From assembly GCA_005223085.1 (NCBI GenBank), contig NJBP01000075.1:1-7803 (forward strand): DNA of 7,803 nucleotides, written 5' to 3'. The stretch is from Candidatus Aerophobetes bacterium Ae_b3b (lineage in GTDB: Bacteria > Aerophobota > Aerophobia > Aerophobales > AE-B3A). The translations under genes and the position numbers were made by a program. The notes under the pieces are model-generated. The model was not told the DNA's origin, searched no databases, and worked only from the letters and a program-made list of their open reading frames with translations. Shown here one piece after another: positions 551 through 6,024 of the stretch (position 1 is the first letter of the stretch; every line of letters starts with the position of its first letter).

Positions 551-3064
551 GTGGCCCTCTTTTTTTCTATCTTCCTGATTTCCTTCTCCATCCTTTCCTA
601 TGAAATCCTCTTGATGAGGATCTTTTCTATAACGAGCTGGTCGCACTTTGCTTATATGATCATAAGTGTTGCTCTCCTTGGTTTCGGTGGTAGCGGAACC
701 TTTATCTCCCTGTTTCAGAATAAATTAAAAAAATATTTTTATCCTTCTTTTACCATTTCTATAACGAGCTGGTCGCACTTTGCTTATATGATCATTAGTC
801 TTGCCCTCCTCGGTTTCGGTGGTAGCGGAACCTTTATCTCCCTGTTTCAGAATAAATTAAAAAAATATTTTTATCCTTCTTTTACCATCCTCTCCTTTTC
901 CTTCTCCATTTCCCTTTTCCTTTGTTTTGTCCTTTCTCAACGAATTCCCTTTGACCCTTTTCTCATCGTCTGGTATCGGCGCCAGTATCTTTATCTATTG
1001 GAATATTATCTGGTTCTTTTCGTTCCCTTTTTCTTAGGAGCAAGTTGCATTGGACTCATGTTTGCTAAATTTCCCCAGAAGATCAGTAGAGTTTACTTCT
1101 ATAATCTTTTGGGATCAGGAGGGGGCGCTTTAGGAGCGATTCTTTTTCTCTATGTTTTTACTCCTCTTCGGGTACTGGTGCTCATAACTTCAATTGCCTT
1201 CCTGGCCGCTCTAATTTCCTCATCTTATCTGGCCAGAAGGGTTTTAATTGGCCTTGTTTTCGCGTCCTTTGCCCTGATCTTTCTTTTTTTTCTCTTTCCC
1301 CCGAAACTTATGATTTCTCAATACAAAGGCTTAAGTACCGCCTTAAATCTTCCCCAGGCAAAAGTTTTAAACGAGGTCTCATCCCCTCTAGGCCTTATTG
1401 ACGTTGTCAGTAGTCCAGCTATAAGGCATGCCCCTGGCCTTAGCCTCAATTTTGAAGGCACCATTCCTCCCCAATTGGGTATTTTTATAGATGCCGACTC
1501 CATGTCTGCTATTACTGATTTTGGGGGTAGGCTCTCCAATCTAAGATTTCTAGATTATACCACCTCAAGTTTGCCCTACCATCTTCTTCGCCTACCCAGA
1601 GTACTGGTTTTAGGAGCTGGAGGGGGCTCAGAGGTTCTCACCGCCCTCTATCACCGAGCCTCATCGATCGAGGCCTTGGAAATTAACCCCCAGGTGATAA
1701 GTCTGGTACAGACTGAACACGGCGATTTTTCCAATCAGCTCTATTCCCTTCCCCAGGTGAGACCGGTAGTAGCTGAGGGACGTGGGTTTATTCAGTCCAG
1801 CGAGAAAAAATATGATCTAATTCAGATTGCCCTTTTAGACTCCTTTAGTGCTTCCTCAGCCGGGGTTTACGCCTTATCGGAAACCTATCTTTATACTCTC
1901 GAAGCTATAAAGGAGTACATAAGGCACCTTACCCCTGAGGGCATTCTCTCCATTACCAGATGGTTGAAGATGCCTCCCCGGGATGGAATTAAGATATTTG
2001 CTACCGCAGTAGAGGCTCTAGAAGATCTGGGGGTGAAAGATCCTTCCTCTCATCTCGTCTTTATAAGAAGCTGGGCTACCTCCACTTTGCTGATCAAACG
2101 ATCTTTTTTTTCTTCCTCCGAGATAATGGCAGCCAAGGAATTTTCCCGAATGAGACTATTTGATCTTATCTGGTATCCAGGCATAAAGTCAGGAGAGGCG
2201 AATCGCTACAACACTTTACCCCAGGCTTATTATTATGATGCAAGTAGAAAAATTCTTTCCCCAGAAAGAGAAAAGTTTTATCAAAATTATCTATTCTATA
2301 TAAGGCCGGCTACCGATAATTCTCCCTATTTCTTTCACTTTTTTAGGTGGAAGTCACTGCCCCACCTTCTTAAAACCATGGGGAGTCAATGGATTCCTTT
2401 TATAGAATGGGGATATATAGTTTTGATGGCCACTTTGTTTCAGGCAGTAGTGGTGAGTATAGTTTTGATTATCCTTCCCTTGTTTGGGCTCAAAAGCTCC
2501 ACCAAGGTGCCAAGGAGTAAACTACCTATTTTTGTCTATTTTCTTTTTCTGGGCTTAGGATACATGTTTGTGGAGATCTCTTTTATCCAAAAATTTACTC
2601 TTTTTTTATCTTATCCTATTTATGCGGTGGCGGTGGTAATATCAGGTTTTCTTTTTTTCTCCGGATGGGGAAGTTATCTAAGTGGACGAATCAGAATAGG
2701 CCGAGCAGGTAGTGTAGCCACTGCCGTGGGAGCAATAATAATTATCTGCCTTATCTATTTGGGGACCCTGGACAGCATTTTTCGAAGGTTCATCTCTTTA
2801 TCGGACCCCATAAAGATAGTGCTTTCCCTTCTCTTTCTTTCCCCTTTAGCTTTTTTTATGGGAATGCCCTTCCCTCTGGGGCTTAGCAGAGTTTCTGTCA
2901 AAAAGCCCTTCCTTGTGCCTTGGGCCTGGGGGGTAAACGGCTGTGCTTCTGTGATCAGCCCTGTCCTGGCCACTGTCCTGGCCACTTCCGCGGGATTTAA
3001 TCTAGTGGTGATAATGGCCCTTTCCCTATATTTCTTGGCGGCCATAATTTCAGTAAGGCTTTAA
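551..3064 (+). CDS. polytopic membrane protein with spermidine-synthase-like (SAM-binding) domain
   Basis: A protein of 837 residues in three parts: hydrophobic helices over about residues 1-250, a soluble Rossmann-type domain over about 330-600, and hydrophobic helices from about 615 to the end. The soluble domain has a motif I VLVLGAGGGSEVL (351-363), an acidic end to strand 2 (E377 in LEIN) and DSFSASSAG from D430, where true spermidine synthases carry a D-x-x-DP type motif. The C-terminal PWAWGVNGCASVISPVLA is typical of membrane-fused spermidine-synthase-like proteins. Their substrate is generally unknown, so polyamine synthesis should not be assumed. I chose GTG 551 because it lies 1 bp after the pcm stop and the protein then begins ALFFSIFLISFSILSYEILL, as relatives do; an in-frame TTG at 524 would add nine uncharacteristic residues. 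Shine-Dalgarno support is weak (GGGA at 537-540). Residues 25-112 are an unusual 44-residue tandem duplication, and the 3' end exists a second time at 3399-3553. Confidence 0.8.
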   Translation: MALFFSIFLISFSILSYEILLMRIFSITSWSHFAYMIISVALLGFGGSGTFISLFQNKLKKYFYPSFTISITSWSHFAYMIISLALLGFGGSGTFISLFQNKLKKYFYPSFTILSFSFSISLFLCFVLSQRIPFDPFLIVWYRRQYLYLLEYYLVLFVPFFLGASCIGLMFAKFPQKISRVYFYNLLGSGGGALGAILFLYVFTPLRVLVLITSIAFLAALISSSYLARRVLIGLVFASFALIFLFFLFPPKLMISQYKGLSTALNLPQAKVLNEVSSPLGLIDVVSSPAIRHAPGLSLNFEGTIPPQLGIFIDADSMSAITDFGGRLSNLRFLDYTTSSLPYHLLRLPRVLVLGAGGGSEVLTALYHRASSIEALEINPQVISLVQTEHGDFSNQLYSLPQVRPVVAEGRGFIQSSEKKYDLIQIALLDSFSASSAGVYALSETYLYTLEAIKEYIRHLTPEGILSITRWLKMPPRDGIKIFATAVEALEDLGVKDPSSHLVFIRSWATSTLLIKRSFFSSSEIMAAKEFSRMRLFDLIWYPGIKSGEANRYNTLPQAYYYDASRKILSPEREKFYQNYLFYIRPATDNSPYFFHFFRWKSLPHLLKTMGSQWIPFIEWGYIVLMATLFQAVVVSIVLIILPLFGLKSSTKVPRSKLPIFVYFLFLGLGYMFVEISFIQKFTLFLSYPIYAVAVVISGFLFFSGWGSYLSGRIRIGRAGSVATAVGAIIIICLIYLGTLDSIFRRFISLSDPIKIVLSLLFLSPLAFFMGMPFPLGLSRVSVKKPFLVPWAWGVNGCASVISPVLATVLATSAGFNLVVIMALSLYFLAAIISVRL
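624..887 (+). repeat. 132-bp in-frame tandem duplication inside the membrane-protein gene
   Basis: Unit 1 is 624-755 and unit 2 is 756-887. They agree at 128 of 132 positions. The four differences all fall within 16 bp (664/796, 668/800, 673/805, 679/811). Three are silent third-codon changes and one gives V to L in IISVALLG versus IISLALLG. Each unit encodes 44 residues that include one predicted membrane helix (around HFAYMIIS..ALLGFGGSG) and a basic NKLKKYFYPSF segment. Relatives that I recall have this segment once. The duplication keeps the frame. Confidence 0.95.
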
Positions 3065-3204
3065 AACTACAGTTGATCAGTGGCTAGTGATCAGGATTCA
3101 ATGATAATTCTTTTTTCCTGCCACCAATCTCTGATTCTTACGAGGAGCGAGAAAGTCACTTGAATTACTCAACCAAGGACCCTCAGACTCAGCATGGTCT
3201 TTGT
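3065..3204. other. unique intergenic stretch without a recognisable feature
   Basis: These 140 bp after the stop of the membrane-protein gene show no ORF, no convincing terminator hairpin and no copy elsewhere in the window. There is a small direct repeat TGATCAG (3074-3080 and 3088-3094). This stretch separates the intact gene from the first promoter cassette and has no counterpart after the duplicated gene end, where a hairpin sits instead. Confidence 0.6.
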
Positions 3205-3300
3205 TTCTTGACTTTCTTTAGAAAAGTTGTTATAGTTTGACCCACATAAGAAACGTAATAGGTGAGATTTTCTAAAACATTACCTATTCAAAAGGTAAAT
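3205..3300 (+). repeat. promoter/leader cassette, copy 1 (96 bp)
   Basis: Identical over all 96 bp to 3585-3680. It starts TTCTTGACTTTC and ends AAAAGGTAAAT. It carries a complete promoter (3208-3236) and an inverted pair AATAGGT (3257-3263) / ACCTATT (3282-3288) in the leader. In this copy the leader runs into a palindromic element and not into an intact gene, so any transcript would start without an evident product. Confidence 0.95.
3208..3236 (+). promoter_or_regulatory. sigma70-type promoter, copy 1
   Basis: The -35 hexamer TTGACT (3208-3213) and -10 hexamer TATAGT (3231-3236) are separated by exactly 17 bp, close to the housekeeping consensus. The sequence equals the promoter at 3588-3616. 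Nothing recognisable is encoded directly downstream, so this copy may be silent, may feed read-through into the gene remnant, or may be a by-product of rearrangement. Confidence 0.6.
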
Positions 3301-3334
3301 GCTCAGTAAACGCCGTGTCACATTGAATTTTCAG
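3295..3334 (+). repeat. 40-bp left flank of REP-like element, copy 1
   Basis: Identical to 4885-4924. It starts GTAAATGCTCAG and ends GAATTTTCAG immediately before the GGTAGCCGCA end of the palindromic element. The first six bases also form the end of the promoter cassette. The repeated flank means either that the mobile unit is larger than its palindromic part or that one copy arose by segmental duplication of the other. Confidence 0.9.
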
Positions 3335-3396
3335 GGTAGCCGCACCCTTCAGGGTGCGCAGGCTAAAGCCTGCGCAGGTTGAAGCCTGCGGCTACC
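3335..3396. repeat. REP/MITE-like palindromic element 1 (62 bp)
   Basis: Bounded by a perfect 10-bp terminal inverted repeat, GGTAGCCGCA (3335-3344) and TGCGGCTACC (3387-3396). The interior is a chain of short hairpins of about 18 nt: CGCACCCT-TC-AGGGTGCG, then CGCAGGCT-AA-AGCCTGCG, then a slightly imperfect third copy near the right end. It encodes no transposase. Elements of this kind are usually moved in trans or spread by recombination; no mobilising gene is present in the window. The right end lies 2 bp from the start of the duplicated gene fragment, so the element marks a rearrangement boundary. Confidence 0.88.
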
Positions 3397-3398
3397 GG

Positions 3399-3553
3399 TC
3401 CTTGTGCCTTGGGCCTGGGGGGTAAACGGCTGTGCTTCTGTGATCAGCCCTGTCCTGGCCACTGTCCTGGCCACTTCTGCGGGATTTAATCTAGTGGTGA
3501 TAATGGCCCTTTCTCTATATTTCTTGGCGGCCATAATTTTCGCTCGCCTTTAA
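3399..3553 (+). pseudogene. second copy of the 3' end of the membrane-protein gene (50 codons plus stop)
   Basis: Positions 3399-3539 match 2910-3050 at 139 of 141 bases. Both differences are silent (TCC to TCT twice). The reading frame remains open from LVPWAWGVNG to a TAA at 3551-3553 in the same place as in the intact gene, but the last codons differ: this copy ends IIFARL, the intact gene IISVRL. There is no start codon or ribosome-binding site; the fragment starts abruptly after the palindromic element. It is a remnant and not a gene in its own right. The silent pattern suggests the fragment descends from a functional allele that had diverged under selection. Confidence 0.9.
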
Positions 3554-3558
3554 AATAT

Positions 3559-3580
3559 GAGGGGTCAAGTCCTGACCCTC
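3559..3580 (+). terminator. hairpin after the gene remnant, possible intrinsic terminator
   Basis: Arm GAGGGGTCA (3559-3567), loop AGTCC and arm TGACCCTC (3573-3580) pair over eight base pairs with one bulged G. The hairpin starts 5 bp after the TAA of the gene remnant and is followed by TTGATTCTT, only a weak T-run. It sits 7 bp upstream of the -35 box of the next promoter. No counterpart follows the intact gene. It may terminate the ancestral transcript; a regulatory role at the promoter is also possible. Confidence 0.5.
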
Positions 3581-3584
3581 TTGA

Positions 3585-3680
3585 TTCTTGACTTTCTTTA
3601 GAAAAGTTGTTATAGTTTGACCCACATAAGAAACGTAATAGGTGAGATTTTCTAAAACATTACCTATTCAAAAGGTAAAT
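3585..3680 (+). repeat. promoter/leader cassette, copy 2 (96 bp)
   Basis: Identical to 3205-3300, offset 380 bp. This copy lies ahead of the aminotransferase gene and is therefore the one with a clear job. The leader inverted pair is at 3637-3643 and 3662-3668 with an 18-nt loop. The cassette is followed by 47 bp of unique leader up to the ATG at 3728. Confidence 0.95.
3588..3616 (+). promoter_or_regulatory. sigma70-type promoter of the aminotransferase/nucleotide-sugar genes
   Basis: TTGACT (3588-3593), a 17-bp spacer and TATAGT (3611-3616) give a near-consensus promoter, with a start expected near 3623 and an untranslated leader of about 105 nt. An interrupted palindrome ACTTTCTTTAGAAAAGT (3591-3607) overlaps the -35 box and spacer and could be an operator; that part is speculation. 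The downstream genes lack another obvious promoter. Confidence 0.7.
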
Positions 3681-3727: not shown

Positions 3728-4852
3728 ATGAAGATTCCCTTGCTTGATTTGAAATCTCAGTACCAGACAATCGAAGAAGAAGTTAATAGGGTGGTAGAAG
3801 AGGTTCTGGAAAGTGGACATTACATCCTGGGCCCAAATGTGAAAACCCTGGAAGAGGAAATCGCTGACTATTGCGAAGTTAAGTATGCCATAGGAGTTGC
3901 CTCGGGCACAGATGCCTTAAGGCTGAGCTTATTGAGCTTGGGAGTGGGTGAAGGAGATGAGGTGATAGTTACTCCTTTTACTTTTATTGCCACTGCTGAG
4001 GTGATTACTCAGGTAGGTGCCAGACCCACCTTCGTTGATATCGAGGAAAAAAGTTTTAATCTGGATCCTGCCAAGATAGAAAAGGCCCTAACCCATAGAA
4101 CCAAAGCCATAATCCCAGTTCATCTTTATGGGCAGGCCGTAGATATGGGCAAGATAATGGACACAGCAAAAAAATACGGTTTAAAAGTAATTGAGGACGT
4201 TGCTCAAGCCTTTGGAACAGAGTATCATGGATGGGCTGCTGGCCGCCCAAAAAAGTTGGGCTCCATGGGGGATGTGGGGTGTCTTAGTTTCTTTCCGACC
4301 AAGAATCTGGGAGGATATGGTGATGGAGGAATGGTTCTAACCAATGACCATGAGGTAGCCAGAAGGATAAAAATGCTCAGAGTTCATGGTCTAGACTCAA
4401 ACTGTGGCCATTCTCTACTGGGATATAATAGTCGGCTGGATGAACTGCAAGCGGCAATTCTTAGAGTGAAGCTAAGATGCGTGGATAAATGGACAAGGAC
4501 GCGTCGCCAAAATGCATCTCTTTATGATAAGCTGTTCTCTTCTTCCACAGTCCCGGTGAGAATCCCTTGGGAGGCTCCCTATGCCAGGCATAGTTACTGT
4601 GCTTACACTATTCGGATACCCAAAAGAGACAGGTTAAGGGATTACTTGAAGAAAAAAGGGATTGAAACCAAGATTTATTATCCTCTTCCCCTGCATCTCC
4701 AGAAGGTTTATAGGGATCTCGGCTGCAGTGATCTTGATCTTCCGATGGCGGAAAGAGCCTCCAAGGAAGTTCTCTCTTTACCGATTTATCCAGAGCTACG
4801 CGAAGCGCAGATTGAGTTGGTGGTAAACGAGATTAAAAACTTTTTTTCATAG
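3728..4852 (+). CDS. DegT/DnrJ/EryC1/StrS-family PLP aminotransferase for a keto-sugar nucleotide
   Basis: A 374-residue, full-length, fold-type I aminotransferase that would transfer an amino group, typically from glutamate, to a nucleotide-linked keto-sugar in the cytoplasm. Visible marks are the N-terminal IPLLDLKSQY, the GVASGTDALRLSL cofactor region, VTPFTFIATAEVI, VPVHLYGQ-like IPVHLYGQAVDM, the PLP-ring aspartate D157 in VIEDVAQAFG, and the Schiff-base lysine K192 in FFPTKNLGGYGDGG. The style resembles WbpE-type enzymes, which act on 3-keto uronic acid nucleotides, but the substrate cannot be assigned. Between AQAFGTEY and LGSMGDVG there is a short extra segment (GWAAGRPKK) compared with the usual YKG..KxGSFGD. 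The start is well supported by AAAGGA at 3716-3721, 6 bp before the ATG. It follows a strong promoter and precedes UDP-sugar genes. Confidence 0.92.
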   Translation: MKIPLLDLKSQYQTIEEEVNRVVEEVLESGHYILGPNVKTLEEEIADYCEVKYAIGVASGTDALRLSLLSLGVGEGDEVIVTPFTFIATAEVITQVGARPTFVDIEEKSFNLDPAKIEKALTHRTKAIIPVHLYGQAVDMGKIMDTAKKYGLKVIEDVAQAFGTEYHGWAAGRPKKLGSMGDVGCLSFFPTKNLGGYGDGGMVLTNDHEVARRIKMLRVHGLDSNCGHSLLGYNSRLDELQAAILRVKLRCVDKWTRTRRQNASLYDKLFSSSTVPVRIPWEAPYARHSYCAYTIRIPKRDRLRDYLKKKGIETKIYYPLPLHLQKVYRDLGCSDLDLPMAERASKEVLSLPIYPELREAQIELVVNEIKNFFS

Positions 4853-4884: not shown

Positions 4885-4924
4885 GTAAATGCTCAGTAAA
4901 CGCCGTGTCACATTGAATTTTCAG
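4885..4924 (+). repeat. 40-bp left flank of REP-like element, copy 2
   Basis: Identical to 3295-3334. Here it is preceded by AGGAG (4876-4880), eight bases ahead of the ATG at 4889, so it looks like a translation start; the resulting frame is MLSKRRVTLNFQGSRTL and stops at 4940-4942 within the palindromic element. I do not call it a gene. Confidence 0.85.
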
Positions 4925-5026
4925 GGTAGCCGCACCCTTTAGGGTGCGTATAAACACTAGCCGCACCCTTTAGGGTGCGTATAAACGCAGGCTAGGATTT
5001 TGCGCAGGCTGAAGCCTGCGGCTACC
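4925..5026. repeat. REP/MITE-like palindromic element 2 (102 bp)
   Basis: It has the same 10-bp ends as element 1: GGTAGCCGCA (4925-4934) and TGCGGCTACC (5017-5026). It includes two hairpins CGCACCCTTTAGGGTGCG, a spacer GCAGGCTAGGATTT and a final hairpin CGCAGGCTGAAGCCTGCG. It sits in the gap between the aminotransferase and the epimerase, so it would be transcribed in any shared mRNA and could stabilise the upstream part, or dampen read-through. Which of these applies cannot be told from sequence. Confidence 0.88.
4927..4988 (+). repeat. 31-bp tandem repeat, two units, inside element 2
   Basis: Units 4927-4957 and 4958-4988 differ only in the last two bases region (CACT versus CGCA context after TATAAA). 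Each unit carries one CGCACCCT/AGGGTGCG hairpin followed by TATAAAC. The extra unit accounts for much of the length difference from element 1 and shows that the elements grow by duplication of hairpin modules. Confidence 0.85.
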
Positions 5027-5065
5027 GGCGAGTACCAAAAATGACGGGGTTCACTGAATACTTAC

Positions 5066-5069
5066 GGAG
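5066..5069 (+). promoter_or_regulatory. Shine-Dalgarno GGAG deciding the epimerase start
   Basis: GGAG lies 7 bp before GTG 5077, a normal spacing, within GGAGAAAGGA. The alternative ATG at 5041 has only the tail of the palindromic element and AGTACCAAAA ahead of it, with no ribosome-binding site. This favours the GTG. Confidence 0.65.
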
Positions 5070-5076
5070 AAAGGAT

Positions 5077-6024
5077 GTGAGAAGCTTACTGGTAACCGGG
5101 GGAGCAGGTTTTATTGGCTCACATCTGGTGGGAAGGCTATTAAAAGAGGATGAGAAGGTAATAGTCATTGATAATTTTGATGATTACTATGATCCCAAAA
5201 TAAAGAGAGACAATATCAAGCAGTATTTGCATAATAGGAATTTTGAGTTAAGGGAAGTGGACCTGCGGGATCCGGAAGAGTTAAGAGGAGTTTTTCAATC
5301 CGATAAAATTGCTAAAGTTATCCATCTAGCGGCCAGGGCTGGAGTTAGACCCTCTTTAAAGAATCCTCTTTTGTATGAGGAGGTAAATATCAAGGGCACC
5401 TTGAATTTGTTAGAAGTATGCAAGGATTACCCGGTGGAAAATTTTATTTTTGCTTCCTCTTCTTCGGTCTATGGCACCGTCAGCACCCCCTTTGTGGAGG
5501 ATGAGAACCTTAACAAGCCTACCTCCTTTTATGCAGCTACCAAGCAGGCTGGAGAGCTCATTTGCCATACCTATCATTATCTCTACAGTATTCCCACCAC
5601 CTGCTTGAGACTATTTACTGTTTATGGTCCGAGGCAAAGACCGGAGATGGCCATACATAAATTTACCAGACTGATCGATGAAGGCAGGGAAATAACTATT
5701 TTCGGTAATGGGCATTCAAAGAGAGATTATACCTATATTTCGGACATTATTGATGGAATTATGAGAGTACTGCACAAAAAATTTGACTATGAGGTATTCA
5801 ATCTGGGTGGTTCTCAACCAATCGAGCTGAGAGAACTCGTGGCATTAATTGAATCGGGTCTGGGAAAGAAAGCCAGGATGAGATATCTACCTGATCAGCC
5901 AGGTGATCTTCCCATCACTTTTGCTGATCTCACTAAATCGAGGAAAGTACTGGGTTATAACCCCAGGATAGGAATAAAAGAAGGTATTAGAAGATTCATT
6001 GAATGGCACCGGAGTAAACCTTGA
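5077..6024 (+). CDS. UDP-glucuronate 4-epimerase-like extended SDR
   Basis: A 315-residue NAD-dependent extended short-chain dehydrogenase predicted to interconvert UDP-glucuronate and UDP-galacturonate through a 4-keto intermediate. From the GTG start the protein begins VRSLLVTGGAGFIGSHL, with the NAD glycine motif at residues 7-14. Then come DNFDDYYDPKIKRDNI, typical of the UDP-uronate epimerase branch, HLAARAGVRPSL, the serine cluster at 127-130 before VYG, the catalytic pair Y152/K156 (YAATK), RLFTVYGPRQRPEMAI, RDYTYISDIIDGI and QPGDLPITFADLTKSRKVLGY. An in-frame ATG at 5041 would add 12 residues with no family counterpart. The UDP-glucose dehydrogenase gene starts 10 bp after the stop and would supply the substrate, which supports the uronate assignment. 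UDP-glucose or UDP-GlcNAc 4-epimerase is a less likely alternative. Confidence 0.88.
   Translation: MRSLLVTGGAGFIGSHLVGRLLKEDEKVIVIDNFDDYYDPKIKRDNIKQYLHNRNFELREVDLRDPEELRGVFQSDKIAKVIHLAARAGVRPSLKNPLLYEEVNIKGTLNLLEVCKDYPVENFIFASSSSVYGTVSTPFVEDENLNKPTSFYAATKQAGELICHTYHYLYSIPTTCLRLFTVYGPRQRPEMAIHKFTRLIDEGREITIFGNGHSKRDYTYISDIIDGIMRVLHKKFDYEVFNLGGSQPIELRELVALIESGLGKKARMRYLPDQPGDLPITFADLTKSRKVLGYNPRIGIKEGIRRFIEWHRSKP

Follow-up and report, generated by a model that had tools for sequence, protein, structure and literature searches.

Prokaryotic MITEs, among them MITEAba12 (113 bp), QMITE2 of Coxiella and Chunjie of Geobacter, are gene-free elements of less than 200 bp with terminal inverted repeats and target duplications; they lie mainly between genes, and their truncated copies are REP-like (PMC6382973, PMC10969869). 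IS66 inverted repeats span 20-30 bp, begin with GTAAGCG and are accompanied by target duplications of 8 bp (PMC11946415). GTAG-type REPs carry GTAG at the foot of a palindrome and are associated with Y1/RAYT transposase genes flanked by such palindromes, and REPs have been hypothesised to affect transcription and mRNA (PMC3733652). A literature search for transposable elements in Aerophobetes found none.

Here we analysed a 7,803-nt stretch of DNA (the window), which is the whole of contig C86 in a 2.04-Mb MAG. It carries members of an element family that resembles the prokaryotic MITEs in all of the features named above and differs from the named ones in its 8-bp target duplication, its other ends and its REP-like hairpin core. 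Like IS66 ends, the element starts with GTAA and is flanked by 8-bp target duplications, whereas the bases that follow differ (GTAAATG/GTAAGTA). We consider it probable, with good confidence, that positions 3295-3398 are a 3'-truncated copy of this dispersed non-autonomous transposon and that this remnant lies at the seam of a tandem duplication of a gene end, a spacer and a promoter/leader region, about 390-490 bp in size (Table 1).

Table 1. Features of the duplicated locus and of the neighbouring complete element.
Feature	Position	Strand	Basis or remark
A, 3' end of the membrane/spermidine-synthase-like gene (602-3064), first copy	2910-3066	+	repeat comparison; syntenic and single in G001
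Spacer x1, 134 nt	3067-3200		single-copy in the genome; neither the second copy nor G001 has it
B, promoter and leader, first copy	3201-3300	+	promoter read from the sequence, presumed active; core conserved in G001
8-mer TTCAAAAG abutting the MITE left end	3287-3294		putative left target duplication in the case of transposition to this site; right partner lost by truncation
3'-truncated MITE copy without its final ~36-38 nt and hence its right terminus	3295-3398	+	copy alignment
MITE left terminus GTAAATGCTCAGTAAACGCCGTGTCA	3295-3320	+	copy alignment
REP-like hairpin within the MITE, GGTAGCCGC...GCGGCTACC	3335-3396		folding, -27.6 kcal/mol as DNA
A', second gene-end copy	3399-3555	+	abuts the MITE remnant; no bases shared at the join
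Spacer x2, 25 nt, short palindrome GGGTCAAGTCCTGACCC	3556-3580		sequence
B', second promoter/leader copy	3581-3680	+	precedes the DegT-family aminotransferase gene (3728-4852); unoccupied site TTCAAAAG / GTAAATTTCAG
Target duplication left of the complete MITE, GGAGAAAA	4877-4884		flank comparison
Complete 181-nt MITE copy, core expanded	4885-5065	+	alignment with other copies
Target duplication right of the complete MITE, GGAGAAAG	5066-5073		flank comparison

Repeats in the window

A preliminary description of this DNA had read 3205-3398 as two downstream sequences fused at GTAAAT. The alignments behind this reading were reproduced. Positions 3205-3300 equal 3585-3680 exactly, and over 3201-3300 against 3581-3680 the sole mismatch in 100 positions is at 3204. 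The stretch 3295-3398 matches both ends of 4885-5028 at 98 of 104 positions with two internal gaps. GTAAAT (3295-3300) is common to both homologies and stands at the corresponding point of each downstream copy (3675-3680 and 4885-4890); the chance of such an overlap at a fixed position is about 4^-6, or roughly 1 in 4,000. Directly downstream, 3399-3555 repeats 2910-3066 with 95% identity, of which 141 nt agree at 98.6% while six changes fall within 8 nt near the end. The repeats in the window are beyond chance.

The two junctions, sharing 6 bp and 0 bp, and the involvement of a rearrangement were thus correctly recognised, whereas the supposed join of sequences 1.2 kb apart was not borne out: the left terminus of an element found between unrelated flanks at about 20 sites falls exactly on position 3295. 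With 3205-3398 as query against its own genome we obtained 41 matches, about 20 of which start at or beside GTAAAT, and the second homology is one of these genome-wide copies. The copy at 4885 was also rejected as the specific donor of the block, as a copy on contig C71 is closer (one gap, versus two gaps and a lower score for 4885). Likewise, the 'promoter cassette' and 'membrane-gene end' turned out to be opposite ends of a single segment that was locally duplicated. A named kind of element thereby replaces the supposed 1.2-kb template switch or assembly error.

A dispersed MITE family

Aligning the copies together with their flanks defined a MITE with the left end GTAAATGCTCAGTAAACGCCGTGTCA and the right end TGACGGGGTTCACTGAATACTTAC. 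It is short, non-coding and multicopy (about 20 copies, 115-181 nt), usually measuring 115-117 nt and in its longer forms 140-181 nt. Its terminal inverted repeats are imperfect, as seen when GTAAATGCTCAGTAAACGCCGTGTCA is compared with GTAAGTATTCAGTGAACCCCGTCA, the reverse complement of the right end. Direct repeats of 8 bp that agree in at least 7 of 8 positions flank 11 of the 15 full-length copies, compared to 0 of 210 mismatched pairings. The family is new to this analysis, and the block at 3295-3398 is an ordinary member that keeps the left end and the hairpin core and bears private variants found nowhere else in the DNA compared. As its right end is missing, a target duplication cannot be demonstrated for this copy. 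Further truncated copies are present on contigs C65, C68 and C70.

Genomes from the same family and order also contain related ends and short elements, and most records of relatives that share the ends bear the label candidate Aerophobetes. Candidate Aerophobetes-related bacteria harbour a MITE family flanked by 8-bp target duplications, which in the genome studied here has a REP-like core, and this family may cause small rearrangements and broken contigs in MAGs of this kind. The search for a parent transposase yielded none: none of the TIR loci examined had a transposase gene enclosed by such ends, and neither did the IS66, IS256 and ISL3 searches reveal one. The IS66 transposase domain (PF03050) had no match in the own genome and 16 relatives (17 genomes, incomplete), and we do not claim kinship with IS66 on the basis of the GTAA ends and 8-bp duplications. 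IS256 was represented in the own genome by a fragment only and ISL3 was absent; neither family gave an element with the ends of the MITE.

At the complete copy, the listed start codon of the adjoining epimerase gene (ATG, 5041) lies inside the right end of the MITE, and the GTG at 5077 is the likelier native start. The right target duplication GGAGAAAG resembles a ribosome-binding site and, judged by its sequence, may serve this gene.

The hairpin core

The core at 3335-3396 folds into a single long hairpin, its 25 pairs divided among three stems (z -6.2 versus shuffles), with GTAG/CTAC at its foot, that is, a palindrome tagged by GTAG (GGTAGCCGC...GCGGCTACC). A search of Rfam with the block gave a single match, nhaA-I, at 22.7 bits and thus below the cut-off of 37, which reflects the hairpin. 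In relatives, e.g. G009 and G012, the hairpin is found without these MITE ends. The own genome encodes a RAYT-like Y1 transposase on contig C37 (L047:2735-3253; 172-aa ORF, PF01797, E 1e-7) with REP palindromes on both sides. The hairpin therefore resembles GTAG-type REPs in the tag at the palindrome foot, in its copies in the own genome and in relatives, and in the Y1 gene placed between palindromes; unlike classic REPs (20-40 bp), it is nested in a TIR-bounded MITE. Together, these findings suggest that the MITE carries a REP-like unit. The Y1 gene itself is located between riboflavin-synthesis genes, and its listed N-terminus, VAAGFSLR, is translated REP.

A hairpin of this strength, positioned between two intact predicted promoter copies upstream of degT, might have been retained for a function as terminator, mRNA stabiliser or regulator, in line with the roles hypothesised for REPs. 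We regard this as quite unlikely, given that copies sit at many unrelated sites, that the G001 locus does without this hairpin and that no T run follows it here. Even more speculatively, RAYT-type cutting at the foot of MITE-borne REP hairpins could create the breakpoints of local duplications, which would make a MITE with a nested REP a rearrangement hotspot; this hypothetical role is improbable at present, and a link between REPs and duplications would become testable if breakpoints at hairpin feet recurred.

A tandem duplication upstream of degT

The locus is laid out as A-spacer-B-MITE (truncated)-A'-spacer'-B'-degT. The predicted promoter in B consists of a -35 element TTGACT (3208-3213) and a -10 element TATAGT (3231-3236) separated by a 17-nt spacer. 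In the same-genus genome G001, the membrane-protein gene is followed by an inverted repeat of about 105 nt and then by degT with the same promoter core in front of it; each of these is single, and the MITE is absent. A and A' differ at 2 of their first 141 positions (1.4%) and B and B' at 1 of 100, whereas A or A' differs from G001 at 14-15 of 157 positions (about 9%); the duplication therefore arose in this lineage after the split from G001. The cluster of six changes in 8 nt falls at 3051-3058, and the corresponding stretch of the second copy (3540-3547) is partly nearer to G001.

The spacers x1 and x2 differ, which counts against the reading preferred here in that it calls for one or more additional insertions or replacements. 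The G001 gap (L052, G001:C98, about 1160-1270) holds a third version, the inverted repeat GGGGACGTGATTATTTTTT...AAAAAATAATCACGTCCCC, and since all three spacers are mutually unrelated, this short gap has changed repeatedly. A repeat search with x1 found none; the palindrome GGGTCAAGTCCTGACCC in x2 is possibly another small repeat.

As to the order of events, we infer that, most likely, one of the two leader copies received the MITE directly behind TTCAAAAG. The breakpoint at which the duplication was formed or trimmed would then have fallen 2 nt beyond the MITE hairpin, probably through a stalled fork or a cut at this long structure, and the right end would thereby have been lost and the remnant joined straight to the second gene-end copy. 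The same left end in about 20 copies with unrelated flanks speaks for a transposed MITE. Against it counts that the unoccupied B' already carries GTAAAT, the first six bases of the MITE, right where the insertion would have taken place, a coincidence of about 1 in 4,000 that is not expected from simple transposition.

For the same reason some weight stays with microhomology-mediated template switching, in which a single event without transposition left B at GTAAAT, copied the MITE up to the hairpin foot and jumped back to the gene end, so that duplication and MITE fragment arose together. Such an event would explain the absence of a right end and of a target duplication; GTAAAT at the join in both B' and the MITE, a fragment that fills the duplication seam exactly, and the clustered changes in A/A' and in a 132-bp repeat further upstream also speak for it. 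We nevertheless judge it unlikely: the join is the exact MITE terminus seen at about 20 other sites, as transposition predicts, the second junction has no microhomology, and no exact donor was present among the copies compared, the best reaching 97 of 104 identities with one gap.

We also considered whether B' is what is left of a MITE copy since lost. The likeness of GTAAATTTCAGAAAA to the MITE end was suggestive only, as 91 of 60,000 random positions gave an anchored match as good as that at 3675, and a second candidate target duplication, TTCAGAAA, matched in only 6 of 8 positions. This reading was rejected.

Integrity of the assembly

The preliminary description had also raised a graph-assembly error, and an assembler could have concatenated repeats or alleles of different strains. 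The MAG from which the window comes consists of 86 contigs and is 88.6% complete; the window is one entire short contig, which moreover holds a second near-identical tandem repeat (624-755/756-887) that is single in G001. In the other ~146 kb of the genome examined, no such close tandem pair was seen other than a 139-bp pair on contig C73 and a single repetitive coding region. Yet a graph misassembly is unlikely: with overlaps of just 6 and 0 bp, a k-mer graph would need spanning reads to pass the two junctions, and the copies have diverged by 1-5%. Moreover, the 21-mers over both junctions are unique within the DNA compared (part of the genome), the block has its private variants, and truncated MITE copies exist elsewhere in the genome. 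An artefact of assembly or strain mixture thus appears very improbable, and the block is probably a real but ordinary genome scar, with transposition and later truncation as the preferred origin.

The repeat at 624-887 is a 132-bp in-frame tandem duplication (97%) within the membrane-protein gene. Matches in relatives other than G001 begin after, or late in, its first copy, and a small doubt regarding strain mixing attaches to it. The pair at the end of C73 is a direct repeat of 99% identity (L042:1-139 and 628-766).
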